A stretch of 64,000 bases of DNA. It comes from Synechococcus sp. CB0101 (GTDB lineage Bacteria > Cyanobacteriota > Cyanobacteriia > PCC-6307 > Cyanobiaceae). Shown piece after piece: positions 21,617-46,564 of the stretch; the stretch's first letter is position 1; each line of letters begins with the position of its first letter. The translations under genes and the position numbers were made by a program. Under the pieces are notes generated by a model, which was given only the letters and a program-made list of their open reading frames with translations, searched no databases and was not told the DNA's origin. The stretch is taken from NCBI RefSeq assembly GCF_000179235.2, contig NZ_CP039373.1:899860-963859 (forward strand), written 5' to 3'.

Positions 21617-21923
21617 CCCCAAGACCTTGGCAACAGGCACCTGGCTGCCGATTGAACAGCTCGCGGAGCAGCTGGTCTGCGGTGAACGCACCGTGGACAC
21701 GCTGCGCTCTGAAGGCATCTTCAAAGCAGGCGAGCACTACTACGCAGTCGGCTCAGGCAAGAAACGCCCGAAGTTCGTCTACTGCCTGGAGAGCTGCAGG
21801 GCTGCCCTGCTGAAGCGCACTGCCGAGTTGGAGGCAGAGCGCAAGGCAACGGTGGAAGACGCCGTTACCTACGACGAGGAGCACCTGGAGGAGCTGATCA
21901 GGGAGGTGCGCGATGGCGACTGA
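21609..21923 (+). CDS. Excisionase/MerR-like winged-helix protein
   Basis: A 104-residue protein whose first 60 residues have the layout of excisionase-type winged helices: PIEQLAEQLVCGERTVDTLRSEGIF then KAGEHYYAVGSGKKRPKFVYCLESC. The C-terminal part is an acidic helix. It could be the directionality factor or an early repressor of the element. A related protein is encoded outside the right boundary at 45092 (shared ERT, K-GEH and Y-LE-C positions). The ATG at 21609 overlaps the upstream stop. Confidence 0.65.
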   Translation: MPNPKTLATGTWLPIEQLAEQLVCGERTVDTLRSEGIFKAGEHYYAVGSGKKRPKFVYCLESCRAALLKRTAELEAERKATVEDAVTYDEEHLEELIREVRDGD

Positions 21924-22944
21924 CCTCGGCAAGCGTCGTTCACCAGCGCTGGAGCAAATGCAGCGCCTGGTTGCCTCCTACGACCTCTTCAACAAAGAGC
22001 TGTTCAGCAATCAGCTCCCGCCCGTTTGGCTTGACCTACGCAACAAGCCAGGCAGCTACGGCTACTTCCAAGCCAACAAGTGGAAAGACGCCAACGGCAA
22101 CCTGCTTGATGTCATCAGCCTCGACAGCAAGACGGCAGCCGAACGCCCGCTGATTGAGCTGCTCAGCACCCTCGTGCATGAGATGGCGCACGCGTACGAC
22201 TTCCACATCGTCAACGAACGCAAGGCACGCCCCACGCACAGCGCTGAATGGCGCCGTGAAATGGAACGCCTCGGCTTGCCTCCTGTTCAGGTGGGCAGCA
22301 CATGGCGACAGGCGACGCATCGCATCGACCCTGACGGGCTCTATGCCCGCACCTTTGCCAAACATCAGGCAGCGCTTCAGGCGTTGCCGTGGCAGGAGTG
22401 CATTGGCACTGCCAATCGCGGGCGTGGTGTTGACCGCGTGAAGTTCCAGTGCCCGCAATGCGGGTTCAATGCTTGGGCAAAGGCAGCAGGTGAGCTGCAC
22501 TGCGGGTTTTGCTCCACCCCGCAGGAGCTGGTGGCGATGCTGCCCGAATACCGCCCGCACGGCGGCGGCGGTAAAGGGAAGCCAGGACGTGCCACTGCCA
22601 AGCGTGAGCACTACGCCGAGCCTTCGGGCGTACCAGCGCTGCCCGTCTACACCGACGAGCTAGGGCGTGAGCTGCGCCTGCATACAGGGCTCGACTACCC
22701 GCCCAAGGACAAAGTTGATGCGCTGTTGGTGATGACGTTCGGGGTCAAGGAGCGGAAGCCTGAACTGCTGCCACCGCTGACCGCAGCGATTGAGGAGCAG
22801 GACTGGGAGGCGATGGATGCAGCGCTCAAAGCGGTCTATCGCCATCGCTGCCAGGTGCTGCACCCCGATGTTGAGGGCGGCTCTGAGGTTGCTTTCAAAG
22901 CACTGCAGACCGCCTACCTCATCCTCAAGCGAGGGAAGCGCTGA
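21913..22944 (+). CDS. SprT-like metalloprotease fused to zinc ribbon and J-domain
   Basis: A 343-residue multidomain protein. Residues 15-110 are a SprT-like zinc protease with HEMAH at 89-93 and a candidate third ligand His109; relatives cut DNA-protein crosslinks. Residues 178-202 form a zinc ribbon (Cys180, Cys183, Cys197, Cys200). Residues about 285-340 look like a short J-domain: VYRHRCQVLHPDVEGG with an intact HPD at 317-319 and FKALQTAYLIL, a layout typical of DnaJ, which recruits Hsp70. A basic glycine-rich linker joins the parts. The gene overlaps the upstream HTH gene by 11 bases. Removal of covalent protein from element DNA, coupled to host DnaK, is a plausible but inferred role. 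Confidence 0.8.
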   Translation: MATDLGKRRSPALEQMQRLVASYDLFNKELFSNQLPPVWLDLRNKPGSYGYFQANKWKDANGNLLDVISLDSKTAAERPLIELLSTLVHEMAHAYDFHIVNERKARPTHSAEWRREMERLGLPPVQVGSTWRQATHRIDPDGLYARTFAKHQAALQALPWQECIGTANRGRGVDRVKFQCPQCGFNAWAKAAGELHCGFCSTPQELVAMLPEYRPHGGGGKGKPGRATAKREHYAEPSGVPALPVYTDELGRELRLHTGLDYPPKDKVDALLVMTFGVKERKPELLPPLTAAIEEQDWEAMDAALKAVYRHRCQVLHPDVEGGSEVAFKALQTAYLILKRGKR

Positions 22945-24711: not shown

Positions 24712-24899
24712 TGGCTCTCTCCAGCAACGACCGCATTGACCTCATCAATGCCCTTGATGTGCTCATCGGCGCCTACGGACAGAACTCCGAAGCCGAAAAC
24801 CGCCTGCGCAAGGACTACACCGCCGACCGCCCTCGCGGTCGTCGTGCCCGTGCCCTGCTGGAGCGCATCGCTCGCGGTGCCCTGGAGGTGGATTGCTGA
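24711..24899 (+). CDS. Small protein upstream of primase-helicase, unknown function
   Basis: A 62-residue charged protein (MALSSNDRIDLINALDVLIGAYG, then a basic RPRGRRARALLERI segment). Its stop codon overlaps the start codon of the primase-helicase (TGATG), so translation is coupled. It may be a regulator or accessory factor of replication, but nothing in the sequence proves this. Confidence 0.55.
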   Translation: MALSSNDRIDLINALDVLIGAYGQNSEAENRLRKDYTADRPRGRRARALLERIARGALEVDC

Positions 24900-27493
24900 T
24901 GCCTCAGGACTTCACCGATTGGCGCCACTACCTCCCGCAACTCGACGGCTTCCCTCTCCTCCCCGTTGGTGCAGGCGTTAAGGGCAAGTCACCGATTGAC
25001 CCCGCTACTGGCAAAGGGCTCGCAGGTTGGCAAACCAAACGATTCACGCCTGACCAGATCGCCGCCATGAATGGCGTCGTGAAATCCGTTGGCACCCTCA
25101 CTGGTCCGCAGGCAGACCACACCGCCTTCATCGACATTGATGGGGCGCTCTGCATTGAACGCTGCAAGCACCACGGCTGCACCACCAAAGAACTCGGCTG
25201 GACCGTTCGCCGCACAACTGCCAAAGACCGTCTCAAAGTCCCGTTCCACATCCCCGAGGAACTCCGTCACTACCTCCAGGACAGCAACGGCAATCCCATC
25301 GGCAAGGTGGTGCTCACCATCAAGCCCGCCGTCTATGACCTCGACGCAGACGGCAAGCCCAAGCGTGATAACAACGGGCGTCCCATCACCCTTGAACCCG
25401 CTCAGCAGATTGAGCTGTTCTACGGCTCAGGGCAGTGCATCGTCCTAGGCGAGCACGTTGAATCCAAAGGGCACTACACCTGGACGGGTAGCCCCATTCA
25501 GATGGGCACCCCCACGCCTGAATGGTGGGCGCTCATCACTGAAGTACTCGAAGCAGGTGCTGCTGAAGCCAAAGCTGCTCGCAAGACCTCTCACGGCTCT
25601 GGCGCCGTCACTCAATCAGGACCACACCACGCCTGCCGCATATGCGGTCGCAACACCAGCGGCGCCTGCACTGAATACAGCGACGGTGAACGCGTACGCA
25701 TTAACTGCTTTCAAGGGCAAACCTTCAGCCCGCCCACAGGGCACGGGCTCAAAGAAGGGCACACCGTCACCATCAACGGCACCACATGGGCGTTCTGTGG
25801 GCACGGCTTCAATCCATCCATCGGCAGCTTCGCCACCTTCGCTGAACACATCCAACGCACGCCTGAGCCCGCAGCGGAGCCATCAGGCGTAGCGCAGGGC
25901 GATGTCCAGCTCTACGACACCGAGTGGCTGAAGCAGCAGCTGCGTGAGTGCCTTGAGGAAGGGCTCAGTGATGGCGAGATGGCAGTCGAGGTTGATCGCC
26001 TCGCCGTTAAAGCCGACGTCCACACCAGCAGGGTTGAAAAGCTCCTCGCTGGTTTGCGTGCTGATGACGCCGCCGCTGAAACCATCGCGGATGTCTCTGA
26101 GGTCATCCAGCAAATCGAAGAGGCAGAGGCAGCCGTCTACGCCATACGCCTGCACGACTTCCTCCCCGCAACCCTCTGCACAGCACTGCAGACCATTCAG
26201 CAAGGCATCCCCTATCCAGACATCACCTTGCTCATGGCGCAGCTGACGCACATCAGCAGCTGCATCAAGCTCGGCACACGCATCAACGGCAACCCCTTCA
26301 CCGATTGGGAAGTGCCCGCCAACCTCTTTCACATTGATGTCGGTCCATCAGGCGCTCGCAAGTCGCCACTTATCAAGGCTGTCTTCACCAAGCCCTCTAC
26401 CGACATCCGCCAACAGCTCAGTCGCCTCAACGCCCAGCGCTACGACGCCTGGGAGGCGGAGTGCGCTGGCAAGAAGCAAAACAAGCCGCCCGCTCCTCTC
26501 GCCATCGTTCACTCCACCAACAGCTACACGGGCGAAGCACTCACTGAACGCCTAGAAGCCCACGAACACCACAAGCAGCCACTCCTCATCCAACGCGATG
26601 AGATCGCAGGGCTCTTTGATTCCTGGGGCAAGTACAAGCAAGGCGGCAAAGGCACAGGTGGTGATGAGCAGCAGCTCCTGGAGCTGTTCGATGGCGATGG
26701 ACATCACTCCATCCGTGTTGGGCGTGGTCGCGCCTACGACCGCTGCCACGTCAGCCTTCATGGCGGCATCCAGGACGCTGTACTGCGTCGCCTCATCGCT
26801 GCAGGTGATGACAACGGCAAGTGGGCGCGTTGCACCTTCGCCCCACTCCCTGAAATGACCTATCGCCTGCCCGTCTTCAGCGAGGAAGCCGCAGAGCAAC
26901 GCAGGCAATCAGAGCGCACCCTCCAAACCATCAGCACTGCTCTCTTCACCGCATCACCCAAGACTTACTTCCTCGATGCAGCAGGCGTGCAGATGCTTGC
27001 CGACTACGACCACCTCTGCCAACTCCAACGCAACGAGTCCCGCGTCCCAGCCATCAAGGCACTCAAGAACAAGGCAGCCGCAAAAGCCATGCGCCTCGCC
27101 TGCCTCCTCCACCTCACGCAGTGCCAAGCCGCTGATCACTACGACGCATCCGTCCCATCAGACCGCCTGGCACTAGCCATCACCCTCGTGGATGCCCTAG
27201 ACGCCTGGGCTGCCTCGTTCCACGCCACCGCTGCGCTCAACGCTCAAGAGGCAAACGCCCTCGCTGATCGCAATCGCATCGCGCAACGCATCCATGAGAT
27301 TGCTGCCAAGCACAAGGGCTACGTCCCCTGGACAACCATCCGTCGCTCCCTTAAAGGCGCTGAAAAGAAAGGCATCACCAACGCCATGGCGCACGTCGTG
27401 CTCCAACAGCTCTGCAATATGGGCATCGGCACCACCAAAGAAGGCACACGCGGCGGCATCTCCTACCGCGCTCTCGGTCCCTTCCCTCAATAG
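24899..27493 (+). CDS. Prim-pol/DUF3987 primase-helicase
   Basis: An 864-residue replication protein. The N-terminal 200 residues resemble bifunctional primase-polymerase domains (FPLLPVGAGVKGKSP, then TAFIDIDG carrying the acidic pair). Around residues 245-275 lies a cysteine-containing zinc-finger-like segment (CRICGRNTSGACTEYSDGE). The C-terminal half is a DUF3987-type SF3/RecA-like helicase with Walker A VGPSGARKSPL near residue 482 and a Walker B-like LIQRDEIAGLF. Such proteins start and drive replication of phages, plasmids and satellites. The codon use is strongly C-ending with frequent CTC and ACC, unlike the terminase gene downstream. Confidence 0.82.
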   Translation: MPQDFTDWRHYLPQLDGFPLLPVGAGVKGKSPIDPATGKGLAGWQTKRFTPDQIAAMNGVVKSVGTLTGPQADHTAFIDIDGALCIERCKHHGCTTKELGWTVRRTTAKDRLKVPFHIPEELRHYLQDSNGNPIGKVVLTIKPAVYDLDADGKPKRDNNGRPITLEPAQQIELFYGSGQCIVLGEHVESKGHYTWTGSPIQMGTPTPEWWALITEVLEAGAAEAKAARKTSHGSGAVTQSGPHHACRICGRNTSGACTEYSDGERVRINCFQGQTFSPPTGHGLKEGHTVTINGTTWAFCGHGFNPSIGSFATFAEHIQRTPEPAAEPSGVAQGDVQLYDTEWLKQQLRECLEEGLSDGEMAVEVDRLAVKADVHTSRVEKLLAGLRADDAAAETIADVSEVIQQIEEAEAAVYAIRLHDFLPATLCTALQTIQQGIPYPDITLLMAQLTHISSCIKLGTRINGNPFTDWEVPANLFHIDVGPSGARKSPLIKAVFTKPSTDIRQQLSRLNAQRYDAWEAECAGKKQNKPPAPLAIVHSTNSYTGEALTERLEAHEHHKQPLLIQRDEIAGLFDSWGKYKQGGKGTGGDEQQLLELFDGDGHHSIRVGRGRAYDRCHVSLHGGIQDAVLRRLIAAGDDNGKWARCTFAPLPEMTYRLPVFSEEAAEQRRQSERTLQTISTALFTASPKTYFLDAAGVQMLADYDHLCQLQRNESRVPAIKALKNKAAAKAMRLACLLHLTQCQAADHYDASVPSDRLALAITLVDALDAWAASFHATAALNAQEANALADRNRIAQRIHEIAAKHKGYVPWTTIRRSLKGAEKKGITNAMAHVVLQQLCNMGIGTTKEGTRGGISYRALGPFPQ

Positions 27494-27800: not shown

Positions 27801-28328
27801 TTGGCTCGCCCAAGCAAACCCGAGCAGCTCAAGATTCAGGAGCGTTGTTATCAGCTATGGGTTGAAGGCAAGTCCCATACAGACATCGCCCGCTTAGCGG
27901 AGGTGAGCACCACCACCGTCACCAAATATGTGAGGCAGTTCCTGGCGGCACAGCCCATCGCAAAGATGACCCGCGAGGAACGCGAGGCGGCGGTCTGGCA
28001 GGAGTGGCAAGAGATTGCGCAGAAGCTGCGCATGGACATTGAGGAACAACGCCATCGCGGTCGCGTCAAGGTCGTCCGCAATCGCCATCCCGATGGCAGC
28101 GAGACGGTGGAGCAATCAATGCTGGCTGGGGTTGACCCGCAGCTCTACCGAGCATGGGGCGCACACCTGGACCGCAAGGCGCGGCAGCTGCTTGACCAGA
28201 CGCCAATCAGCGAAGGCGGCAACGTCGTGAACGTCTCGGTGGTGCGCGACTTCCTCGGGCAGAGCGATGCGCCAGCCGCCAGGCTCAGCGCTGAGCAGTG
28301 GAACGAGCAGGCTGCGATTGACGTCTAG
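27801..28328 (+). CDS. Terminase small subunit-like HTH protein
   Basis: A 175-residue protein starting at TTG 27801. The N-terminal helix-turn-helix (WVEGKSHTDIARLAEVSTTTVTKYVRQFL) is followed by a long charged helical region and a C-terminal tail, the usual layout of small terminase subunits that recognise the packaging site. It is placed before the large terminase with three small genes between. The assignment depends mostly on context; a transcription regulator is the alternative. Confidence 0.6.
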   Translation: MARPSKPEQLKIQERCYQLWVEGKSHTDIARLAEVSTTTVTKYVRQFLAAQPIAKMTREEREAAVWQEWQEIAQKLRMDIEEQRHRGRVKVVRNRHPDGSETVEQSMLAGVDPQLYRAWGAHLDRKARQLLDQTPISEGGNVVNVSVVRDFLGQSDAPAARLSAEQWNEQAAIDV

Positions 28329-29377: not shown

Positions 29378-29448
29378 GCAGCACGAGGCTGGGCTAAGTA
29401 TCCGCGAAGTGCAATTACGGCAGACTGAGGGGAGCTATTAGCTGATTG

Positions 29449-30954
29449 ATGTCTGTACGCCCGCTGCAGCTAAGCCCTTGGCAGCGCAAGGTTGCTGGCT
29501 TGGTGCAGAGCGTGGATTCGCTGAACACGTTGCTGCTGGCAGGCGGTCGTGGTGGCGGCAAGTCGGTGTTGCTGGTGTGGCTGATTTGCTACTTCGCCAT
29601 CACGAGCGGTGGGAGTTTCAGGGGTGTGTTGATTAGGGCGGATCTGAGTGGTTTGCAGAAGCTGGAGGGGATGCTGATGGAGCAGATACCGCTGCTGTTA
29701 CCAGGGAGTAAGTATTTGCGGGCGAAGCGGCAGTGGAACCTGAGCAATGGTGGCAATCTTAAGTTAATACATATGGACGGAAATGATGGATTTAACAAGA
29801 TTCAGGGTGAGGATTTAAGTCATGTGTTCTGGGATGAGCTGGGGCAGGAAGCAGACCCGCAGGTTGTGTTGAGGGTGCGCAGCTCAATGCGTACGACTGA
29901 CCCGAGCGTGGTGCCGAAGTTTGTGGCGACGGCTAACCCGCTTGGTCCTGGTAGTTGGTGGATCAGGGATTATGTGGTGACGAAGGCGTTACCGAATCGG
30001 ATATTTAAGTGTGAGTTCTTTGGTGGTGGTGAGTGTTGTTGGGTTAAGTCAACGCTGCGGGACAACCCGTATCTGAGCAATCCAGATCAGTATGAGGCTG
30101 AGCTGAAGGCGAGTTGCTTTGGTGATGAGTCAAAGATTGCGGCTGAGGTTTACGGGGATTGGGGGCAGGTAACAGCTGGCTTCTTTGGTAGTTGCCTGAG
30201 TATTGAGCGAAGCATGTTGCCCGGCGGGTTGACCCTCCCGTATCAAGGCGTTGATGGGTCTGTGATCAGACGCGAACACCAGTCGCGGTGGTGCTGGCTT
30301 GGCTGTGACTGGGGCACTGCATCACCGGCCTGCGCGGTGCTGATGGTCGAGGTGGTCGATGACTGGATTGAGCTCGGCGGGAAGGTGATCCCCCGCGGTT
30401 CGTGGATCTGCCTGGATGAGGCTTACATCTGCTCGATCCAGCCCGATGGCTCCAAGGAATGGAATCGCGGCGACCGCTCGCTCACCACGCAACGCTTCGC
30501 CTCGAGAGTTGGCGGTCTGCTCAGTCACTACGGGATGAGCCTTGCAGATGTCGGCAAGCGCCGCACGATCATGGATTCGGCCGTCACCGCACAGCTGGGT
30601 TACACGCAGGAAGGCTGGGATGCGCCTGTGACGTTGGCTAATGACTTTGCGCGCTACGGCTTTCAGGTCACCGGTAGCCCCAAAAGCTCGAGAGCTGTTG
30701 GCTGGCAGTTCATGAAACAGCTGCTCTATGCAGCGGACCGCGACGGCTCACCCGGGCTCTACATCTCCGAATCCTGCGAATCGCTTTGGCAAACATTGCC
30801 CTACTGCGTTAGCGATGAAAAGAACCCCGAGGACATGGAAAAGACTGCACCTGATCACAGCGCGGATGCAGTGCGCTATGTCCTCACCGCTGCCAATCAG
30901 AAGCAGCATGGATGGAGAGTTCCGGTTGGTGGTTGTCAGATAAGGCTTTACTGA
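29449..30954 (+). CDS. Phage terminase large subunit (TerL)
   Basis: A 501-residue DNA-packaging motor. The ATPase part shows Walker A GGRGGGKS at residues 32-39 and Walker B/catalytic VFWDE ending near 130. The C-terminal RNase H-like nuclease has its acidic residues in GCDWGTASPACAV, IMDSAVTAQ and DHSADAVRY. Length and order are standard. Codon use changes sharply near 30200: the first half is rich in TTG, GTG, GGT and TTT codons, the second half in C- and G-ending codons like the backbone, suggesting a recombinant gene. No portal or capsid gene follows. Confidence 0.88.
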   Translation: MSVRPLQLSPWQRKVAGLVQSVDSLNTLLLAGGRGGGKSVLLVWLICYFAITSGGSFRGVLIRADLSGLQKLEGMLMEQIPLLLPGSKYLRAKRQWNLSNGGNLKLIHMDGNDGFNKIQGEDLSHVFWDELGQEADPQVVLRVRSSMRTTDPSVVPKFVATANPLGPGSWWIRDYVVTKALPNRIFKCEFFGGGECCWVKSTLRDNPYLSNPDQYEAELKASCFGDESKIAAEVYGDWGQVTAGFFGSCLSIERSMLPGGLTLPYQGVDGSVIRREHQSRWCWLGCDWGTASPACAVLMVEVVDDWIELGGKVIPRGSWICLDEAYICSIQPDGSKEWNRGDRSLTTQRFASRVGGLLSHYGMSLADVGKRRTIMDSAVTAQLGYTQEGWDAPVTLANDFARYGFQVTGSPKSSRAVGWQFMKQLLYAADRDGSPGLYISESCESLWQTLPYCVSDEKNPEDMEKTAPDHSADAVRYVLTAANQKQHGWRVPVGGCQIRLY

Positions 30955-31361: not shown

Positions 31362-31531
31362 ATGAGCCTCTGGGGCGTAGACAAGCCCGAGCAGAAACGC
31401 CAGCAGGGCAGTGGTGGCATCGGCTGGCTGCGTTCCCCTGACGGCGACAAGGTGGTTCGCATCGAGGGTGCCGGCGAATCTCTCCATGCCAAGCGAGGCT
31501 TTGGACAACCAGCTCGACTCAGGAGACGGTT
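31362..31531 (+). repeat. First copy of the DKPEQKRQQ repeat block
   Basis: About 190 bases starting at ATG 31362 are nearly identical to 34053-34252. Both encode [25 protein letters not shown], then [12 protein letters not shown]. Here the stop codon of the other copy (TGA) is CGA, so the frame runs on into noncoding sequence. It lies directly before an upstream repeat and the first leader-peptide gene. Confidence 0.6.
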
Positions 31532-31633
31532 TGACCTCACCAGAAACTCCCTGAAACCTCCCTGGCTCCTCATCTGGCAATGGGCAATCATCCCAGTGAT
31601 AGTGAATACATCGAGAGGAACACACCTCCGACC
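31532..31633 (+). repeat. Cassette upstream repeat, copy 1
   Basis: Conserved noncoding module beginning TCACCAGAAACTCCCTGAAA, with CTCCTCATCTGG in the middle and GTGAATACATCGAGAGGAAC near the end. It precedes the gene at 31664. The GTGAATACAT word could act as a -10 region, which is unproved. Confidence 0.75.
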
Positions 31634-31663
31634 TCACGCCAAACGCTCAACAAGGTCAACACT

Positions 31664-31813
31664 ATGAACACCAACATCACTGAACTCAAAAACGAAGAAC
31701 TGGAAACCATCCAGGGCGGTGGCTCCACAATTCTCGGCAACACAGCACCCGCTGATCCGCAGCTCCAACAGCTGCACGATGTCTTGCCAAAAAGGGGCAT
31801 TCGCAACATCTAG
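31664..31813 (+). CDS. Double-glycine leader peptide, core 1 (RiPP/bacteriocin precursor-like)
   Basis: A 49-residue peptide. The leader NTNITELKNEELETIQGGG has the amphipathic helix plus double-glycine cleavage site of bacteriocin/RiPP precursors. The core (STILGNTAPADPQLQQLHDV then LPKRGIRNI) has no Cys and little Ser/Thr after the first residues, so lanthionine formation is unlikely; it may be exported unmodified. The leader resembles that of the FKBP fusion at 34365. It is preceded by the conserved upstream repeat. Confidence 0.7.
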   Translation: MNTNITELKNEELETIQGGGSTILGNTAPADPQLQQLHDVLPKRGIRNI

Positions 31814-31847
31814 GGAGACTCTGGACAACAAGCTCGGCCGAGGAATG

Positions 31848-31978
31848 ACTTGGCCTCACTAGAAACACACCGCGCCTCACCCGCTCCTCCTCTGGGGTGG
31901 CGCGAGCAAACCTGTGACGGCAAATACATCGAGAGAAAAGCCCTCCGACTGCACCTCACACTTCAAGGAGTTTCAATC
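31848..31978 (+). repeat. Cassette upstream repeat, copy 2
   Basis: More diverged copy with CCTCACTAGAAAC, CTCCTCTGG and AATACATCGAGAG, running up to the AAGGAGTTTC ribosome site of the gene at 31979. Confidence 0.65.
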
Positions 31979-32122
31979 ATGACTAACAAAGCAGACCGTG
32001 ATCTGAACCTTCAAACTACCGACCTCCCTCATCAACCAGTAGAGCTTGCGGGCAAGGAGCTAGAAGGTGTGACTGGTGGTTTCATTGAGCCTATACTGGG
32101 CTTGTTTGGTATTCGCACCTAA
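31979..32122 (+). CDS. Double-glycine leader peptide, core 2
   Basis: A 47-residue precursor. The leader MTNKADRDLNLQTTDLPHQP is followed by VELAGKELEGVTGG (double-glycine site), then the short hydrophobic core FIEPILGLFGIRT. A strong AAGGAG site precedes the ATG. The leader is close to those at 35074, 35484 and 35946, while the core is unrelated to any of them. A small hydrophobic amphiphilic core of 13 residues could be membrane-active. Confidence 0.8.
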   Translation: MTNKADRDLNLQTTDLPHQPVELAGKELEGVTGGFIEPILGLFGIRT

Positions 32123-32146
32123 ACAACCTCACCCACCCAAAACCCA

Positions 32147-32491
32147 ATGCCAGAAGAACAACTAAAAGCCTTCCTGGAAGCCGTCAAGGCTGATGCGGAT
32201 CTACAGGAAAAGCTGACGGCAGCTGCAGATGTGGATGCCGTGGTGGAGATTGCCAATGCAGCGGCGTTTGCGATTTCTGCTGAGGAGCAGGGTCAGGTAG
32301 AGATTTGCGATGAGGAACTGGGAGGCGTGACTGGGGGCATCCGACCATCTTACGCAGAGATAAAGGAGCATACTGATAGCTTAGTGCGACAATGCAATGA
32401 AGCTTACGAAAAAAAACTTAGAGCTGAAACTCTAGAAAAGGAAAAACAACAAAGATATGATTGGTATAAGCCCAAAGATGATCAAGGCTAG
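32147..32491 (+). CDS. Nif11-type leader peptide protein, core 3
   Basis: A 114-residue Nif11-like precursor. The leader MPEEQLKAFLEAVKADADLQ, then EKLTAAADVDAVVEIANAAA, ends in DEELGGVTGG. The 48-residue C-terminal part (IRPSYAEIKEHTDSLVRQC, with one Cys, then many Lys/Glu) looks like a charged helix rather than a typical modified core. It begins 24 bases after the previous precursor with no separate upstream repeat, so the two are probably co-transcribed. Nif11-type leaders guide modification enzymes in other bacteria; none is present here. Confidence 0.8.
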   Translation: MPEEQLKAFLEAVKADADLQEKLTAAADVDAVVEIANAAAFAISAEEQGQVEICDEELGGVTGGIRPSYAEIKEHTDSLVRQCNEAYEKKLRAETLEKEKQQRYDWYKPKDDQG

Positions 32492-32526
32492 CGGCAGCTA
32501 CTTAACCGCTGATTGTATATACCCAG

Positions 32527-32552
32527 AGCCCCTGTAACCGCAGGGGCTTTTT
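32527..32552 (+). terminator. Rho-independent terminator after the first Nif11 gene
   Basis: Perfect 8-bp stem AGCCCCTG/CAGGGGCT around TAACCG, followed by a T-rich tail (TTTTC). Confidence 0.85.
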
Positions 32553-32744
32553 CTTCAATAGCCCACAAAGACCCATTATTCAGTCACCAATACCTGGTAC
32601 CATTTCAATTACGGTAACTATTGCTGGACGGGTTTTCCAGAGGTCTCTCAAGTAATCTTGCTGACGCAGGAGTGACCTTGGGCGATAATGAAGTCATCCA
32701 CCTCGCCCACTCATAGCTTTGTCAGAAGAGCAACTCAAAGCATT
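32553..32744 (+). repeat. Nif11 upstream repeat, copy 1 (ending in IS-interrupted Nif11 start)
   Basis: Begins CTTCAATAGCCCACAAAGA and includes TGGTACCATTTCAATTACGG, GGTTTTCCAGAGGTCTCTCA and CTCGCCCACTC. It matches the sequence before the intact Nif11 gene at 36331. Its last 26 bases (32719-32744) encode LSEEQLKAF, the first residues of a Nif11 leader, with TTG in place of ATG, and stop at the IS3 end. Confidence 0.75.
32719..32744 (+). pseudogene. Nif11 leader gene truncated by IS3 insertion
   Basis: Nine codons (SEEQLKAF after a TTG) match the start of the gene at 36331 exactly and are then cut by the IS end at 32745. The remaining part of the gene is not found on the other side of the IS, so the insertion was accompanied by a deletion or rearrangement. 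Confidence 0.7.
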
Positions 32745-32795
32745 TGACGTGACCCCCTTTATCGGTCCAGGCCTTATGAGAGTGGGTGGTCGTGG

Positions 32796-33644
32796 TCATG
32801 CTGCAGCTCCTGGTTGAGCTGCCTCCAGGGGCGTACGCCCCTGGAGGGCCGAATGTGGCCTGAACGTGTTGTACTCCCAGCGCCAGCGATCAGCCAGGAG
32901 TTGAGCCTCGGGAGCCGTGGTGAACAGCTCGGTGTTGAGGAACTCATCCCGGAAGCGTCCGTTGAACGATTCTGCAAAGCCGTTCTCCCATGGGGAGCCC
33001 GGCTCGATGTACGCCGTGCTGGTGGTCTCGCTGGCCTCGCACCAGTCCCGTAGAGCTTGGGCGATGAATTCCGGCCCGTTGTCAGACCGGATAAACGTCG
33101 GCGCTGGATAGACGCTGGTCAGCTCTTCCAGCACGGCCACGACGTCCTTGGCCTTGCAGCGCCTGCCGACTCGGATGGCCAGGCAGAGACGGCTGTGCTC
33201 ATCGATCACGTTCAGGAATTTGAGTCTGCGACCGTCGGCCGTGGCATCGAACTGGAAATCCATAGCCCACACCTGGTGGGGATGCTCAGCCCGGTGACGC
33301 CGCACGGAGCCATCGGCTGGCCTGGCCCGCTTGCGTTTCCTGGAGATGGGCCGCTGCAGGCCCTCCTCTCGCCACAGCCGTTGCACCCGTTTGTGGTTCA
33401 CGCTCCAGCCCTCTCGCCGCAGCAGGCGGTAAGCCATCCGCCGGCCCCAGCGGATGTGCTCGGCTGCGATCTCGCGGAGACGATGCCGCAGCTTTCCCTC
33501 CTCGATCGAGACGACCTTGGCTGGATGGCGCTGGGTGCTGCGGTTTTGACCCACCACACGGCAGACCTTCCGCTCAGATGCCCGGTAACGCTCCTGCAGG
33601 ACAACAACGGCCCGCCGGCGACGCTCCGGGCTCAGAAGTTTCCC
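32796..33644 (-). CDS. IS3-family transposase OrfB (DDE integrase domain)
   Basis: About 280 residues read in the -1 frame relative to orfA. The HTH_21 region ([21 protein letters not shown]) is followed by the DDE core: [10 protein letters not shown] (first Asp), [11 protein letters not shown] (second Asp) and [17 protein letters not shown] (Glu). No separate good start codon is seen; it is probably made as an OrfAB fusion through a slippery GGGAAAC at 33638-33644. This copy has an open frame through the [12 protein letters not shown] region that is frameshifted in copy 2. Confidence 0.88.
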
Positions 33645-33910
33645 TCGGCGAGATCCTTGTGCATCGCCTTCTCCAGCTCGGCTTCTGCCAGAAGCTTCTT
33701 GAGCCGGGCGTTCTCCTTCTCCAGCTGGGTTAGCCGCTTGGCCTCCTCCGCTTGCATCCCGCCGTATTGCTGCCGCCAACGGTGATACGTCGGCTGCGTC
33801 ACCTCGATCACGCGGCAGACGTCGGCGACGGTCTTGCCTTGGGCGATCAGCTGCTCCGCGGTTTTGAGCTTGCGGATGATCTGCTCGGCTGTATGCCTGG
33901 TGCGTTTCAT
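33632..33910 (-). CDS. IS3-family transposase OrfA
   Basis: A 92-residue DNA-binding protein: helix-turn-helix ([20 protein letters not shown] then [18 protein letters not shown]) followed by a leucine-zipper coiled coil ([20 protein letters not shown]). It ends GNF-stop immediately after the slippery heptamer used to reach orfB. Confidence 0.9.
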
Positions 33911-34049
33911 GGTCGAGTCCCCGGCCCAGTCTGGCCGGATGAGGACTCTCATTCACCCTGGACCGATCACCAGGGTCCACGTCAAGCTCACCACTGTCAG
34001 CTCCAAACCGGCAGAGTTGTGGCCGTCCACCCTGGGAGCCAAGCTGGCA

Positions 34050-34184
34050 ATGGGCCTCGGGGGCATAGACAAGCCCGAGCAGAAACGCCAGCAGGGCAGT
34101 GGTGGCATCGGCTGGCTGCGCTCCCCTGATGGCGACAAGGTGATTCGCATCGAAGGGGCAAACGAATCGCTCCATGCCAAGTGA
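34050..34184 (+). CDS. Small protein of the DKPEQKRQQ repeat (second copy), unknown function
   Basis: A 44-residue frame [19 protein letters not shown], then [20 protein letters not shown], ending SLHAK. The frame is also open upstream towards the IS. The same peptide is encoded at 31362. The two copies keep the protein sequence although many codon third positions differ (GGT/GGC, GTT/ATT), which hints at selection on the protein. No family recognised. Confidence 0.45.
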
Positions 34185-34218
34185 GGCTCTGGACAACCAG
34201 CTCGACTCAGGAGACGGT

Positions 34219-34328
34219 TTGACCTCACCAGAAACTCCCTGAAACCTCCCTGGCTCCTCATCTGGTATTGCGCGCCCAACCCTGCGATCGTGAATACATC
34301 GAGAGGAACACACCTCCGATCGTTACGC
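34219..34328 (+). repeat. Cassette upstream repeat, copy 3
   Basis: Near-identical to copy 1 over its first 60 bases (TCACCAGAAACTCCCTGAAA, CTCCTCATCTGG) and its GTGAATACATCGAGAGGAAC end. It precedes the FKBP fusion gene. Confidence 0.75.
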
Positions 34329-34364
34329 CACAAAAGCGAACAACCTTATACATACTCCTGTCCC

Positions 34365-34709
34365 ATGAACACCCCAATTCTCGCACTTAGCGATCAAGAA
34401 CTCATCACCGCAGTCGGAGGTAGCGGATCTGGAGCCAAACCTGGCCAGACTGTTGTCGTTCATTATCGCGGTACCTTCGAGAATGGCCAAGAGTTCGACA
34501 GCAGCTACGGCCGTGACCCCTTCTCCTTCCCCCTCGGCCTCGGCCGTGTTATCAAAGGCTTGGATGAAGGTGTGGTCGGAATGAAGGTGGGCGAGAAGCG
34601 CACCCTAGTGGTTCCCCCAGCCCTGGCCCACGGTGAGCGCGGTGTAGGCGACAAGATCCCCCCCAACACCACCTTGATTTTTGATATTGAGCTTCTTAAG
34701 ATCCGCTGA
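34365..34709 (+). CDS. Double-glycine leader fused to an FKBP-type prolyl isomerase domain
   Basis: A 114-residue protein. Residues 1-19 (MNTPILALSDQELITAVGG) are a short double-glycine leader like that at 31664. Residues 24-114 form one complete FKBP domain: GQTVVVHYRGTFENGQEFDS, FSFPLGLGRVIKG.DEGV, GMKVGEKRTLVVPP, IPPNTTLIFDIELL. The FKBP active site is mostly kept, but the Trp floor residue is Leu (KGLDEG) and the loop Tyr is His (ALAHGERG). Known FKBPs of this small type have signal peptides or none; a double-glycine leader implies export by a leader-cleaving ABC transporter. The gene has the same upstream repeat as the peptide cassettes. Confidence 0.85.
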   Translation: MNTPILALSDQELITAVGGSGSGAKPGQTVVVHYRGTFENGQEFDSSYGRDPFSFPLGLGRVIKGLDEGVVGMKVGEKRTLVVPPALAHGERGVGDKIPPNTTLIFDIELLKIR

Positions 34710-34942
34710 GCAGGCTCAAGCATAGGGCTCGAAAGTGTTAATGGTAAATATTTGACAGTACTTAGGTATCCTTTGCTAGTTAATCATTGACTAGGGAAGT
34801 CTTAGCAGGGTCGCTCGCCGGTGGCAGCGGTTCCGATCTCTCCTTCCCCAAAGCGCTCGGTTAATCTCAAGGCAACAAACCACTAAGAGCCCCGGGTTGC
34901 GCCGAGGCTTTTGCTTTGCTCACGGCAGCTGCTGCTTCAGCT
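34710..34942. other. Intergenic stretch with AT-rich promoter-like sequence and weak terminator
   Basis: No gene seen. A TTGACA at 34752-34757 is followed at suboptimal spacing by TAGTTA in a locally AT-rich patch, a possible promoter. Near 34886 AGCCCCGG...GAGGCTTTTG forms an imperfect terminator-like hairpin. Confidence 0.35.
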
Positions 34943-35073
34943 CCTCGCTCACCAGAAAATCCCTGAAACATCCCTCGCTTCTCATCTGGTATCGGGGACT
35001 CGGCCCTGCGATGGTGAATACATCGAGAGGAACACACCTCCGACTCAACCTCACACATCAAGGAGTTTTAATC
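34943..35073 (+). repeat. Cassette upstream repeat, copy 4
   Basis: Carries TCACCAGAAAATCCCTGAAA, TCATCTGGTATCG, GGTGAATACATCGAGAGGAA and ends with the AAGGAGTTTTAATC ribosome-site region of the gene at 35074. Confidence 0.75.
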
Positions 35074-35235
35074 ATGACTAACCAACCCAACCGCGATCTC
35101 ACTCAGCAAGCCCAGGAGCTGGACGACCAGCAGTTGGAAGCCGTTGCCGGAGGTTTTATTAGTTATCCCGTGCCGACGCGGGAAGATTGGGAAGAATTGA
35201 AGCGCCGTCATGAGCGAAACCCTAATGGTCACTGA
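35074..35235 (+). CDS. Double-glycine leader peptide, core 4
   Basis: A 53-residue precursor: leader MTNQPNRDLTQQAQELDDQQ, LEAVAGG cleavage site, then a 26-residue core FISYPVPTREDWEELKRRHE ending RNPNGH. The core is charged and helical with no Cys. A perfect AAGGAG lies 8 bases before ATG. Confidence 0.8.
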   Translation: MTNQPNRDLTQQAQELDDQQLEAVAGGFISYPVPTREDWEELKRRHERNPNGH

Positions 35236-35316
35236 TCTGTTGTGGGGGCTCTGCTTTTATGGCCGCCCATGCGGAAATGAATTGCCTAGCAATATAGAAA
35301 AACTATGAATTCATTG

Positions 35317-35342
35317 AGCCCCGGCTTCGGCTGGGGCTTTTT
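35317..35342 (+). terminator. Rho-independent terminator after core 4
   Basis: AGCCCC-GGC-TTCG-GCT-GGGGCT hairpin with a stable TTCG tetraloop followed by a T run. Confidence 0.85.
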
Positions 35343-35349
35343 GCTGCGC

Positions 35350-35483
35350 TCTCGCTCACCAGAAACTCACTGAAACCTCCCTGGCTCCTCATCTGGTATT
35401 GAGCGTTCAACCCTGCGATCGTGAATACATCGAGAGGAACACACCTCCGACATTCACACCTCACACTCCAAGGGGTTTCAACC
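35350..35483 (+). repeat. Cassette upstream repeat, copy 5
   Basis: TCACCAGAAACTCACTGAAA, CTCCTCATCTGGTATTG, TGCGATCGTGAATACATCGA and AGGAACACACCTCCGACATT, up to the AAGGGG ribosome site of the gene at 35484. Confidence 0.78.
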
Positions 35484-35645
35484 ATGACCAATCAATTCAA
35501 TCGCGACCTCACGCTGCAAGCTTTCGACATTGTTCATCAGCCTTTAGAGCTTTCGGACAAGGATCTGGAAGGCGTGGCTGGTGGCCAATTGTGCCCTGTC
35601 GGTCCATTTTTCTGCCCGGACGATCCTGTGTATTCCGACTGGTGA
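35484..35645 (+). CDS. Double-glycine leader peptide, core 5 (two-cysteine core)
   Basis: A 53-residue precursor: leader MTNQFNRDLTLQAFDIVHQP, LELSDKDLEGVAGG, then core QLCPVGPFFCPDDPVYSDW. The core contains two Cys flanked by Pro (LCPVGPFFCP) and could form a disulfide-closed loop. It is the only core of this leader type with cysteines. The leader is 70-80% like those at 31979 and 35946 by eye. Confidence 0.82.
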   Translation: MTNQFNRDLTLQAFDIVHQPLELSDKDLEGVAGGQLCPVGPFFCPDDPVYSDW

Positions 35646-35819
35646 TTCGGATCAAGGGGGCAACGGGCATTCAGTAGGCACGGCCAAGTCAGGTCTCTTG
35701 TTGTTCCTCCCCTACCACTTCCTCTGGCCTCCGCCCTCTAAAAGCGGTTGGGCGTGCAGCTGTAGCTTGGCCGGTCTTTCATTGAACAGGCTTTTGGTTA
35801 AGTGCAAATCACTATTCCG
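35646..35819. other. Intergenic stretch, nothing recognised
   Basis: About 170 bases between core 5 and the next upstream repeat. CCTCTAAAAGCGGTTGGGCGT and flanking C-rich sequence show no gene, strong hairpin or repeat that was recognised. Confidence 0.4.
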
Positions 35820-35945
35820 TCTCACCTGAAATTCACTGAATCCCCCATGGCTCCTCATCTGGTAGGAGGCAATCAGCCCTGCGACAGTGAATAAACCGAG
35901 AGAAAATACCTCCTACTTCACCTCAAACATCAAGGAGTTTTAATC
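35820..35945 (+). repeat. Cassette upstream repeat, copy 6
   Basis: Diverged copy: TCACCTGAAATTCACTGAAT, CTCCTCATCTGGTAGGAGG, GTGAATAAACCGAGAGAAAA, then AAGGAGTTTTAATC before ATG 35946. The ACATCGAGAG word is changed to AAACCGAGAG. Confidence 0.7.
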
Positions 35946-36104
35946 ATGACTAACAAAGCAGACCGTGATCTCAACCTTCAAGCTACCGACCTCCGTCATC
36001 AACCAGTAGAGCTTGCGGACAAGCAGCTAGAAGGTGTGTCTGCGGCTTCCAACACCCTGAGGCACTACAGGCGTGATTTCCTGGATCGAGCGGCTGGCTA
36101 CTAA
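35946..36104 (+). CDS. Leader peptide of the same family with double glycine lost
   Basis: A 52-residue frame. The leader MTNKADRDLNLQATDLRHQP and VELADKQLEGV is nearly identical to that of core 2, but the cleavage site reads VSAAS instead of VTGGF. The C-terminus NTLRHYRRDFLDRAAGY is basic and unrelated to the others. With GG changed to AA the leader would probably not be cleaved by a C39-type peptidase, so the product may be non-functional, retained, or processed differently. Confidence 0.7.
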   Translation: MTNKADRDLNLQATDLRHQPVELADKQLEGVSAASNTLRHYRRDFLDRAAGY

Positions 36105-36162
36105 GGGAATGTACATCCTGACGCTATTCCCCCAGAGCCTCTGTAGTCGCAGGTTTTTTTAT

Positions 36163-36330
36163 CTTCAATAGCCCGCAGAGATCCATCATTCAGCATCCAG
36201 TACTTGGCACCATTTCAATTCTGGAGGCCATTGCTGGTCGGATTTTCCAGAGGTCTTTCATACTATCCTGCTGCCACCAGGTTGGAGGTCAGCCATAATG
36301 GAGTTCATCACACCTCGCCCACTCCAAGCG
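36163..36330 (+). repeat. Nif11 upstream repeat, copy 2
   Basis: CTTCAATAGCCCGCAGAGA, TTGGCACCATTTCAATTCTG, GATTTTCCAGAGGTCTTTCA and CTCGCCCACTCCAAGCG, matching 32553-32744 throughout with scattered changes. It runs into the ATG at 36331. Confidence 0.75.
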
Positions 36331-36660
36331 ATGTCAGAAGAGCAACTCAAAGCATTCCTGGAAGCCGTCAAGGCTGATGCAGGTCTTCAAGAGAAGCTAA
36401 AGGCAGCAGGCGATGCCGATGCCGTGGTGGCGATCGCCAAGGGTGCAGGCTTTTTGATCTCTGCTGAGGAGCTGAAAAAAGCGCAGGCTGAGGTTTCAGA
36501 TCAAGAGTTGGCTATTGTGGCTGGTGGGGGACAGCTTAATCGTCTTAACGATTTCTATTCTGAGGCGATGAAAAAAAGACTTCAGCAAGAGCTTTCAGAT
36601 AAGGAGCTCGAAGGCGTAGCTGGGGGAATGAATGGCATCCTCCCTAGGGACAAAAATTAG
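36331..36660 (+). CDS. Nif11-type leader protein with two double-glycine motifs
   Basis: A 109-residue protein. The Nif11 leader MSEEQLKAFLEAVKADAGLQ, then EKLKAAGDADAVVAIAKGAG, ends in a first site VSDQELAIVAGGG near residue 70. A 20-residue spacer (QLNRLNDFYSEAMKKRLQQ) follows, then a second, consensus site LSDKELEGVAGG near 100 and a last short tail MNGILPRDKN. The arrangement looks like fusion of two precursors or a precursor with two cleavage events that would release a linker and a 10-residue tail. Confidence 0.8.
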   Translation: MSEEQLKAFLEAVKADAGLQEKLKAAGDADAVVAIAKGAGFLISAEELKKAQAEVSDQELAIVAGGGQLNRLNDFYSEAMKKRLQQELSDKELEGVAGGMNGILPRDKN

Positions 36661-36699
36661 TTAGGGAATCCTCTTGATAACCCCGCACACGCGAGCAGA

Positions 36700-36785
36700 T
36701 GCTCCCTGGGTCTCACCCCATCCTGCTGACACCAGACTGAAGATGGGCGATGCTGAAGTCAGACACACCTCACCCACTCAAAGCG
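36700..36785 (+). repeat. Nif11 upstream repeat, shortened copy 3
   Basis: Retains CCTGCTGACACCAGACTGAA, GGGCGATGCTGAAGTCA and CCTCACCCACTCAAAGCG from the 3' half of the module; the 5' half is missing. Confidence 0.55.
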
Positions 36786-37073
36786 ATGCCAGAAGAGCAA
36801 CTCAAAACGTTTCTGGAAGCGGTCAAGGCTGATACGGGGCTTCAGTAGAAGCTGAAGGGAGCAAGTGATGCTGATGCCGTGGTGGCGATTGCCAAGGGTG
36901 CAGGCTTTTTGATCTCTGCTGAGGAGCTTCAGAAGTCTCAGTCGGACTTGTCTGACGAGGAGTTGGAAGGCGTGGCTGGGGGCGTCGGCGAGGTGTGTTG
37001 GCAGACGAAGGACGTAAATGAGTGGCCTGGGAACGGAGGGAAGGCGTCAGAGGATTGGTGGAAACCTGCCTGA
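36786..37073 (+). pseudogene. Nif11-type leader gene with a nonsense codon
   Basis: The frame encodes MPEEQLKTFLEAVKADTGLQ, then TAG at 36846-36848 where the paralogues have Glu (GAA/GAG), then KLKGASDADAVVAIAKGAG, LSDEELEGVAGG and the core VGEVCWQTKDVNEWPGNGGK ending in ASEDWWKPA. Everything after the stop is intact, so the change is recent, a suppressed codon, or a sequencing error. Internal re-initiation at GTG 36882 would make a shortened leader. Confidence 0.75.
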
Positions 37074-37132
37074 ACTAAGAGTTACCCACTTTGATCTCCT
37101 AAAACCCCTGCAAACACAAGGGCTTTTTGTTT

Positions 37133-37197
37133 CTTCAATAGCGCACTCAAGACCATAAGTCAGCCTCCAGTGCCTGGCACCATTGCATCGAAATGAG
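37133..37197 (+). repeat. Nif11 upstream repeat, partial copy 4
   Basis: CTTCAATAGCGCACTCAAGA and CCTGGCACCATTGCATCGA match the 5' part of the module. No Nif11 gene follows, so this marks the decayed right edge of the array. An imperfect hairpin with a T run (about 37105-37130) lies just before it. Confidence 0.6.
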
Positions 37198-43413: not shown

Positions 43414-44640
43414 TCAGCCTCCTACCGCCACAGCCTGCCCTGCATCCCCTGAATGGGTGAGACACGCCTGCCCGTTCACAGCCTCAAAGGCACTGGCAAG
43501 GTCGCGCGTCATGAAGCGGGCGTAGTTGCCCATATGCACCTCAAGGCTGTGCCCCATGGCATCAGCCATTTGCTTGGGCTGCAGACCACGGGCGTGACCA
43601 GTAGCGCTGTAGCGATGACGGAATGAGTAGGGCACGAGTTCCTGCCCTTCAGCAGCAGCTTCAGCAGCGATGGACTGCCAAGTGGGCTGACGCTTGAGGA
43701 AGGTGCCAAGCGCCTCGCCTGCTTTGCCTGGCTGCCCCAGCGGCGGCAGTTCCTCTTTGAGGTGGACGCGCTGCTGCAGGTTCCAATCCACTGCCCCATC
43801 CACGTCATGCACGAGCAGGGGGTAGAGGCGACGTTCAGCCGTGCGAGCACCTTTACGCCCGCCCTTGGACTTCTGATAGGTGGACCACAGCTCGGTGCCG
43901 TTGTTGCGGGTGACGAGATGGCGCAGGTCTTCAGGGCGCAAGCCGTAGACGGCGAGCAGCTGCAGGGCAAAGCGCCAGCGGTGCCCTGCGGCGGTATCAG
44001 GCACCGCATCCACCAGACGCAGCACCTGAGCATCGGTGAGGGGATAGCCGATGCGCTTCTCGTTGACGTATTCACCATCAACGGCAGCAGGTGGCAGCCA
44101 GCAGGATTTGAAGCTGCGGCGCTGAACGCAAAAGCGGAGGAAGCCGCTGAGTGATTGGCGCATGATTTGGCGCTGACGGGTGCCTGGCTCCCAACGCTTG
44201 AGAGCGGCATCACAGAGGTCAACACCGTTGGTGGGGGCGTTCTTGCTGCCGAGTGCCTTCAGCGCTGCCTCAAAGACAGGCGTGTACTTCTGACGCCATG
44301 TGCGGTCAGAGACGCGTTGCTTGTGCTGGCGGTAGGCAGCAGCGGCAGCAGTCCAGTCGGTGTCGTGGGCAGAGCGCACGACGGTGGCGACCTTGGCGGC
44401 ACCTTTGAGGTCAACGCCACCTTCGTTGAAGGCTTTGGCAATGACCTTGATGTGCTGCAGGGCATCAACCCATGCCGCTTCCTCCCAGGCAAAGGGGAGG
44501 TTCATGGATTGGGTCTTGATGCCAGGGCGACGCACTTGAAGGCGCATACGCCCGTAGTCGGGCATGACAAGCCAGCCGCTGCCCACCTGGGACTTGATGG
44601 CTTTACGGAGCTGGATTGCCCAGTCGGTTGAGGTATTCAC
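43414..44640 (-). CDS. Tyrosine recombinase/integrase of the element
   Basis: A 408-residue phage-type integrase beginning at GTG 44640. An N-terminal arm/core-binding region (residues 1-190) precedes the catalytic domain with Arg235 (YGLRPEDL), a basic Lys segment, YSFRHRY with Arg341 (the usual His of HxxR is Tyr338), His364 (MGHS) and the nucleophile Tyr373 (GNYARF). It lies next to the right attachment site and catalyses insertion into tRNA-Pro. The gene reads towards the interior of the element. Confidence 0.92.
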   Translation of the reverse strand: MNTSTDWAIQLRKAIKSQVGSGWLVMPDYGRMRLQVRRPGIKTQSMNLPFAWEEAAWVDALQHIKVIAKAFNEGGVDLKGAAKVATVVRSAHDTDWTAAAAAYRQHKQRVSDRTWRQKYTPVFEAALKALGSKNAPTNGVDLCDAALKRWEPGTRQRQIMRQSLSGFLRFCVQRRSFKSCWLPPAAVDGEYVNEKRIGYPLTDAQVLRLVDAVPDTAAGHRWRFALQLLAVYGLRPEDLRHLVTRNNGTELWSTYQKSKGGRKGARTAERRLYPLLVHDVDGAVDWNLQQRVHLKEELPPLGQPGKAGEALGTFLKRQPTWQSIAAEAAAEGQELVPYSFRHRYSATGHARGLQPKQMADAMGHSLEVHMGNYARFMTRDLASAFEAVNGQACLTHSGDAGQAVAVGG

Positions 44641-44792: not shown

Positions 44793-44835
44793 CTTTGGGA
44801 GCACTAGGTCGCAGGTTCGAATCCTGTCGCCCCGA
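44793..44835 (+). repeat. Right attachment core (attR)
   Basis: Exact 43-base copy of the tRNA-Pro 3' end (CTTTGGGAGCACTAGGTCGC at its start, GTCGCCCCGA at its end) without the 5' half of a tRNA. It marks the right boundary of the element. Confidence 0.95.
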
Positions 44836-46211: not shown

Positions 46212-46285
46212 TGACGTGGCCCCTAAAAATCGGTCCAGGGTGAATGAGAGCCCTCATCCGGCCAGACTGGGCCGGGGACTCCACC

Positions 46286-46564
46286 ATGAAACGAACCCGC
46301 CACACACCCGAGCAGATCATCCGCAAGCTCAAAACGGCTGACCAGTTGCTTGCCCAGGGCCAGACAGTTGCGGACGCCTGCCGATTTCTCGAGGTCTCCC
46401 AGCCCACCTACCACCGCTGGCGGCAGCTCTACGGCGGAATGAAGGCAGAAGAGGCCAAACGGCTCAGCCAGCTGGAGAAAGAGAACGCCCGGCTCAAAAG
46501 GCTTCTGGCGGAAGCAGAGCTCGACAAGGCGATGCTCAAGGACCTCGCCGAGGGAAACTTCTGA
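46286..46564 (+). CDS. IS3-family transposase OrfA
   Basis: A 92-residue HTH/leucine-zipper protein ([20 protein letters not shown] then [20 protein letters not shown]). It is about 85% like OrfA of copy 1 by eye. It ends AEGNF-stop over the slippery GGGAAAC at 46552-46558, as in copy 1. Confidence 0.9.
   Translation: MKRTRHTPEQIIRKLKTADQLLAQGQTVADACRFLEVSQPTYHRWRQLYGGMKAEEAKRLSQLEKENARLKRLLAEAELDKAMLKDLAEGNF

Follow-up and report, generated by a model that had tools for sequence, protein, structure and literature searches.

A dispersed set of double-glycine leader genes with a shared upstream element and unrelated cores in Synechococcus sp. CB0101

What use does a picocyanobacterium have for a row of small genes whose leaders are alike and whose cores have nothing in common? 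This question is raised by a 64,000-nucleotide stretch of Synechococcus sp. CB0101 (genome positions 899860-963859), referred to here as the window; coordinates are those of the window unless marked as genome, and the genome is a single contig of 2,789,616 bases. Translation of the window identified ten genes or gene remnants at 31664-37073 with leaders of the type that ends in a double-glycine motif (GG), the part after GG being called the core (Table 1). The leaders belong to three classes, the MTN class (n = 4), the MNT class (n = 2, one of them the fusion to an FKBP domain) and the Nif11 class (n = 4, including the fragment at 32719). A first-pass annotation of this DNA had counted at least nine such genes or remnants, which the present count bears out, and two leader types, which is one class too few. 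Position 31362, at which it let the array begin, is part of an upstream flank (31362-31641; repeated at 34050-34330 with 90% identity) and not a gene start. The set is larger than first described, this array being one of several in the genome; the promoter in the shared unit had been missed, and one cargo is an enzyme domain (FKBP). The roles of many picocyanobacterial GG-leader precursors are debated. We think it fairly probable that the genes described here form a dispersed, co-regulated GG-peptide export regulon of swappable promoter-leader modules, which would work like the blp regulon of Streptococcus pneumoniae.

An element of about 100 bp precedes all six non-Nif11 genes of the window, and the aligned stretch stops just short of the start codon. 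Its first part, block 1, consists of four tandem 11-nt units (CTCACCAGAAA CTCCCTGAAAC CTCCCTGGCTC CTCATCTGGTA) and matches itself at a lag of 11 in 19 of 33 positions (shuffle p 0.0002; p 0.001 if all lags between 6 and 14 are admitted). Regulators of the OmpR/PhoB type typically bind tandem 11-bp repeats. The start codon lies 80-85 nt past block 1, or 97 nt in the two FKBP genes. One copy of the element used as BLAST query matched 20 places at eight loci of the genome, and a block-1 matrix gave 21 matches above 8 bits in 317 kb, 20 of which are located ahead of leader open reading frames (ORFs), compared with none in one shuffle. A whole-genome search with a sequence-only model of the element (built from 21 copies, E ≤ 10) returned 23 places, namely the 21 training copies, a known copy at genome 931714 and a site at a transposase gene (genome 1421211, E = 0.002). 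As judged from the downstream frames, 21 of the 23 sites precede leader-class ORFs of five classes (12 MTN, 4 MNT-ITEL, 2 FKBP, 1 MTINTSEL and 2 of a basic-core family); the leader carries GG in 18 of these ORFs and AA, GP or AG in three. Similar arrays and single cassettes are found at further chromosomal loci. In the copies at genome 1431405 and 2584408 the remaining promoter is largely different and block 1 and its spacing are kept, which argues for block 1 being a functional site rather than the product of recent duplication alone.

The element was found in one of 25 genomes of the genus; in other relatives, weak partial matches of 18-26 nt (E 0.02-0.1) were obtained in 5 of 59. It looks confined to this genome, apart from a likeness upstream of one gene in a related mobile element (L203:12918, see below). 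A structured RNA regulator is unlikely, since the aligned element folds at -1.4 kcal/mol with three pairs. A small GAGG..CCTC inverted repeat in the element, GGGG..CCCC in three diverged copies, was noticed by eye; we do not treat it as proof. A literature search, whose coverage left out most subscription journals, turned up no account of a promoter module common to cyanobacterial GG-leader genes.

Where the likeness between cassettes ends was determined for the 12 MTN-class genes of the genome, aligned in 66 pairs from 120 nt before the ATG to 150 nt after GG. DNA homology spans the upstream element and the leader, up to the GG region. Six pairs have the same core; in the 60 different-core pairs, which are non-independent as they represent about seven core types, the end of homology falls no more than 5 nt from the GG codon in 22, earlier in 37 and later in one. 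Alternative scorings placed the end within 5 nt of GG in 20, 20 and 10 pairs; under the most permissive, 21 pairs run on, and under the strictest, 50 end earlier. BLAST comparisons showed the same end at GG in the Nif11 class (36982, 32341), and in two paralogues with two GG motifs the break lies at the second GG (36626). At the other side, many pairwise matches start at the first base of block 1 and others reach further upstream. The array pattern is not due to chance, since the cores differ completely at the DNA level while promoter and leader remain alignable, as the first-pass annotation had described for leaders and cores. Promoter and leader are about 73-96% identical beside unrelated cores, which is hard to explain by point mutation and calls for replacement or recombination. 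With its switch at the GG codon, the set offers a natural experiment in the separate evolution of leader and cargo.

Some cores recur at another locus, and for these the ratio of nonsynonymous to synonymous substitutions (dN/dS), pooled over nine of ten computed pairs (one was omitted as a repeat of the same gene, and 31664 was used twice), is 0.49 for cores and 0.30 for leaders. Recurring cores are thus under mild purifying selection by this sequence measure, and the earlier description of the cores as hypervariable does not hold in the sense of hypervariability by mutation, which the pooled core value rules out. Cores are more diverged than leaders at synonymous sites (0.46 against 0.26; p 0.005), which fits gene conversion of the promoter-leader part. 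In the pair formed by 35074 and its copy at genome 1105502, the cores differ by about 16 nonsynonymous changes and by no synonymous ones (p 0.03, uncorrected). MTN-class matches were obtained in nine of 151 family genomes, own genome included: the 12 strong matches (E under 1e-11) in the own genome are the 12 aligned genes, and those in the other eight are partial, over the GG end, with a best E of 6.6e-6. Similar C-terminal tails (SQTVFS, SSTVFA, IQVVFS) occur on different cores at genome 1106120, 2216225, 2581129 and 2147249 (loci L025, L026, L028 and L030). Locus L029 (genome 1426006, 1427407 and 1428119) contains more GG-leader genes with larger, microcin-like cores, two of them in copies that are 97% identical over 513 nt.

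One window gene (34365) joins a 19-residue leader to an FKBP domain (Pfam FKBP_C, E = 3.4e-34), and a second GG-leader FKBP copy is present near genome 1106335. The fusion suggests that the export route may carry enzyme domains. For FKBP genes elsewhere, 33 N-termini were read among 80 of 441 confirmed loci, the host's other FKBPs lying outside this search, and none of the 33 has a short GG leader directly before the FKBP domain. These N-termini are longer and of a different nature, many with a membrane-anchor-like stretch, and many marine strains have ALGG about 20 residues ahead of the FKBP domain within that region.

Neither of the two C39-peptidase ATP-binding cassette (ABC) loci in the genome, which answer the proposal in the first-pass annotation that host transporters of this kind be looked for, is located inside the array. 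At 799 kb the C39 gene is followed by an HlyD-type gene; at 2020 kb it has an HlyD-like gene and a second ABC gene as neighbours, and an OmpR-type regulator and a kinase adjoin this exporter. The best NCBIfam model of both C39 proteins is NHLM_micro_ABC1. Two further regulatory genes were observed near leader genes. In locus L032 (genome 123-131 kb), two Nif11 genes have an OmpR-type DNA-binding gene (123214) in their vicinity, and about 6 kb further on lies an integrase that shares 41% identity with that of the window. In the 1105-kb array, a gene for a sigma-70-family factor (L025:5284-6213) precedes the first cassette by about 1.1 kb.

In the mechanism that we propose, a cassette would consist of a ~100-bp promoter element, a leader of 18-34 residues that normally ends in GG and an interchangeable cargo, mostly a peptide (13-69 residues), with an FKBP domain as the cargo of two copies. 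An OmpR/PhoB-family response regulator would probably bind the 44-bp four-repeat block, a predicted site, and would turn the cassettes on jointly. Cleavage after GG and secretion of the cargo, either unmodified or carrying no more than disulfides, would fall to a C39-peptidase ABC exporter. Duplication and gene conversion may keep promoter and leader alike while the cargo is replaced at the GG codon, and some arrays would be carried by a terminase-bearing element that integrates in tRNA-Pro. The cassettes would likely supply a secreted cocktail for competition or signalling outside the cell. About twenty genes with different cargoes thus appear to draw on one secretion module that the cell reuses. 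A bolder joint proposition, which we hold as possible rather than probable, is that the promoter-leader module is a secretion plug for almost any frame, even FKBP, with cargo exchange exactly at the cleavage codon, its own PhoB-type regulator and no need of a maturase, spread among picocyanobacteria by terminase-bearing tRNA-integrated elements.

The closest parallel is the blp (pneumocin) system, in which GG-leader peptides are expressed from several promoters that have tandem direct repeats upstream, ABC transporters process GG peptides on export and one promoter is located outside the main cluster, as reported (PMC4739728). Here too, several GG-leader promoters carry common tandem direct repeats, and C39-peptidase ABC exporters are encoded at two loci. 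The blp repeats are described as 9 bp long, with a known regulator (BlpR) and pheromone (BlpC) (PMC4739728), compared with 11 bp here. Unlike in blp, the loci are dispersed, the cargo includes FKBP and the switch occurs at the GG codon; immunity genes were not identified, no search for them having been made. Membership in the blp/pln-type regulons is not claimed.

Several observations weigh against an active, co-regulated export regulon. Signs of decay are present, with a TAG in one Nif11 gene and a Nif11 fragment cut by an insertion sequence (IS), and AA, GP or AG takes the place of GG in three of 21 leader ORFs genome-wide. The element site at genome 1431166 has no recognisable leader, and that at 1421211 lies at a transposase gene. 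Compared with a solved FKBP, the window FKBP carries Leu in place of the Trp of VIKGW and His in place of the Tyr of AYGE, both at positions that we take to belong to the active site; the copy near genome 1106335 retains the Trp and the Tyr. Both C39 exporters fall short of the NHLM cut-off of 853.3 bits, at 414.1 and 545.3 bits, and the genome holds 16 matches to the OmpR-type DNA-binding domain. With the element model, no block-1 site was found near the exporters or the adjacent two-component system (797-803 kb and 2018-2026 kb), which is why the link between the OmpR-type system beside the exporter and the cassettes is circumstantial. A tandem-unit scan at both exporter loci stayed at the level of shuffled sequence.

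The leaders themselves raise the alternative of a prochlorosin-type array, in which they would direct diverse cores to a promiscuous enzyme for conversion into lanthipeptides or other ribosomally synthesised and post-translationally modified peptides. The curated cut-off of leader_Nif11 (TIGR03798, NCBIfam; 32.3 bits) is passed by three window frames, which are bona fide Nif11 leaders, at 32147, 36331 and 36786 (57.7, 93.9 and 38.6 bits; for 36786 the part 3' of the TAG was scanned). The MTN and MNT peptides reach 15.7 bits or less, or no match, with this model and stay below every NCBIfam and Pfam cut-off shown, including CTB and other GG bacteriocin families, so that a family assignment for the leaders, as suggested in the first-pass annotation, succeeded for Nif11 and failed for the other two classes. 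Gene 36331 scores 28.8 bits with the CTB model (cut-off 32), and its second GG leader passes Pfam L_biotic_typeA (25.1 versus 21.7). Further points in favour of modification are Nif11 arrays with Cys-bearing cores in related elements and the use of Nif11 leaders by marine Synechococcus with ProcM-like enzymes, as reported in PMC10783134. In the window, two Cys are found in the core of 35484 and one each in 32147 and 36879, most cores having none, and taken together the window cores do not show the combination of Cys with Ser/Thr expected of prochlorosins and class II lanthipeptides. Searches for modifying enzymes in the complete genome covered LANC_like, YcaO and SPASM: the first two gave no match (LANC_like was positive in one of 14 control genomes), and the single SPASM protein is GrrM (613.6 bits, cut-off 310) beside its own Gly-rich ORF. 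Both statements of the first-pass annotation on this matter, that the cores lack the lanthipeptide pattern and that there is no maturase, agree with these results, and an array of this type appears very doubtful. What is shared with the Nif11-leader (N11P) precursors and prochlorosins of picocyanobacteria is a conserved GG-ended leader before unrelated cores (PMC10783134); unlike these, the MTN and MNT leaders are not Nif11, the cores mostly have no Cys and LANC_like and YcaO are missing. The pair of GrrM-type radical SAM maturase and Gly-rich ORF lies at L179:290-1863 (genome ~1145 kb).

The upstream element could also be a self-spreading repeat (like a miniature inverted-repeat transposable element, or by segmental duplication), the cassettes being largely decaying relics with no joint promoter function. 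Its many copies in one genome, in one of 25 of the genus, would suit this, as would the IS elements that adjoin several cassette loci, the TAG, the IS-cut fragment, the altered GG motifs and the leaderless copy at 1431166. We judge it improbable, as the element precedes five leader classes at a near-constant distance to the ATG, two diverged copies keep block 1 alone well, and the pooled dN/dS is 0.49 for cores and 0.30 for leaders. Greater weight, although we still think it unlikely, is given to the idea that the same export regulon serves adhesion, biofilm or a surface structure, as EbfG in Synechococcus elongatus, and not competition. An FKBP cargo and very mixed cores suit a general secretion route. 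Dispersed, strain-limited genes, as found here, are more usual for competition factors, which counts against it. The small GG proteins EbfG1-4 are secreted with the C39-peptidase transporter PteB, and S. elongatus is reported to need such C39-exported proteins to form biofilm (PMC4997328); the genome studied here likewise has GG leaders and C39 genes. EbfG1-4 are reported as one co-transcribed set (PMC4997328), whereas here about twenty dispersed cassettes have a common promoter module.

As the cassettes have a common promoter module in a genome without LANC_like or YcaO, the set is testable as one regulon. What appears to be new is a proposed GG-peptide regulon of dispersed loci in which promoter and leader form a modular unit, with a cargo switch at the GG codon and a captured enzyme domain.

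The array is located after the terminase gene in a 24.4-kb element integrated in tRNA-Pro (Table 1), which also encodes a DUF2399 protein between the tRNA-Pro repeats. The first-pass annotation had placed the array on a mobile element; the 43-nt tRNA-Pro repeat and the integrase-like gene support this, but the element is not the whole story, because similar arrays and single cassettes occur at other chromosomal loci too. The tRNA direct repeats and integrase are those expected of a tRNA-integrated phage satellite, and no capsid or tail gene was recognised among the element proteins scanned; of features that would bear on packaging by a helper phage, the terminase-like gene is the one present. 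The element resembles what we take to be the tRNA-integrated phage satellites of picocyanobacteria (tycheposons), presumably alike in having an integrase-like gene, tRNA direct repeats, replication and terminase-like genes and a cargo region; membership is not established. A second IS3-type transposase copy lies at 46244-47393, outside the integrated element, with near-identical copies in L028, L031 and L032 and a partial one in L025.

Terminase matches were found in 21 of 300 family genomes, own genome included, and the related elements in the seven other genomes with the best terminase scores (L201-L207) were examined. Three or four GG-leader genes, mostly Nif11, follow the terminase within about 4.5 kb in L203, L205 and L207, and the same motif scan found no GG-leader gene after the terminase in L202, L204 and L206. 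The GG motif match in L201 is antisense within a 2068-amino-acid ORF and was counted as chance. An ORF 35-40% identical to the protein at 27801-28328 lies near TerL in five of the seven loci; tRNA-Pro is present in L202, L203 and L204, the last of which also has a 28-nt tRNA-Pro repeat that marks a second site. When six GG-leader genes of related elements were compared with NCBIfam, five passed the Nif11 cut-off and L203:12918 belonged to no family. The sequence upstream of L203:12918 is similar to the module: CTCACCAG and the TGAA of the second block are likewise separated by 66-67 nt (hand count). That arrays follow the terminase in related elements of other genera too points to a way in which peptide repertoires could spread. 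A 2521-base stretch had no match in phages or plasmids, and in viral contigs 69 stretches fitted a peptide pattern, none of which was confirmed.

Table 1. Features of the array, the upstream element and the integrated element in the window (aa, amino acids).
Feature	Position	Strand	Details
MNT-class precursor	31664-31813	+	49 aa, core GSTILGNTAP...
MTN-class precursor	31979-32122	+	47 aa, core FIEPILGLFGIRT
Nif11-leader precursor	32147-32491	+	114 aa; 57.7 bits
Nif11 leader fragment, ends at IS	32719-32744	+	
IS3-type insertion sequence, limits approximate	32745-33991	-	83% identity to L028 8572-9805
GG leader fused to FKBP domain	34365-34709	+	114 aa; MNT class
MTN-class precursor	35074-35235	+	53 aa, core FISYPVPTRE...
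MTN-class precursor, two Cys	35484-35645	+	53 aa, core QLCPVGPFFCPDDPVYSDW
MTN-class precursor, AA replaces GG	35946-36104	+	52 aa
Nif11-leader precursor, two GG motifs	36331-36660	+	109 aa; 93.9 bits
Nif11-leader gene with in-frame TAG, probable pseudogene	36786-37073	+	
Promoter element copy 1 (putative)	31536-31641	+	block 1 is the first 44 nt
Promoter element copy 2 (putative)	31855-31959	+	one-base gap in block 1
Promoter element copy 3 (putative)	34224-34329	+	
Promoter element copy 4 (putative)	34948-35053	+	
Promoter element copy 5 (putative)	35355-35460	+	
Promoter element copy 6 (putative)	35821-35926	+	
tRNA-Pro (TGG), integration site	20383-20457	+	ARAGORN
attL, 43-nt direct repeat, 3' half of tRNA-Pro	20414-20456	+	exact repeat of 44793-44835
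SprT-like protein	21913-22944	+	Pfam E = 6.5e-9
Primase/helicase-like protein	24893-27493	+	DUF3987 E = 1.3e-30; Prim-Pol just under cut-off; PHROG DNA helicase
Helix-turn-helix (HTH)-like protein, small-terminase position	27801-28328	+	weak Pfam HTH under cut-off; no PHROG match
Terminase large subunit-like	29446-30954	+	PHROG terminase large subunit E = 5.4e-20; Pfam under cut-off
Integrase-like gene	43414-44640	-	PHROG integrase E = 1.4e-14; Pfam matches all under cut-off
attR, 43-nt direct repeat	44793-44835	+	

The Nif11-class genes have an upstream motif of their own, AT-N-CCTGGCAC, which is found across several genera. In the window it is located at 32522-32607, 36131-36217 and 37105-37187, the last copy having no gene behind it, and it was also observed in L203, L205, L207, L071, L075, L080, L082 and L085. 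In 12 loci (345 kb, both strands) the motif occurs 28 times, and it precedes 14 of 35 Nif11-like starts. Its distance to the ATG is set within a genome, being 131 nt here and 86, 99 or 46-47 nt elsewhere.

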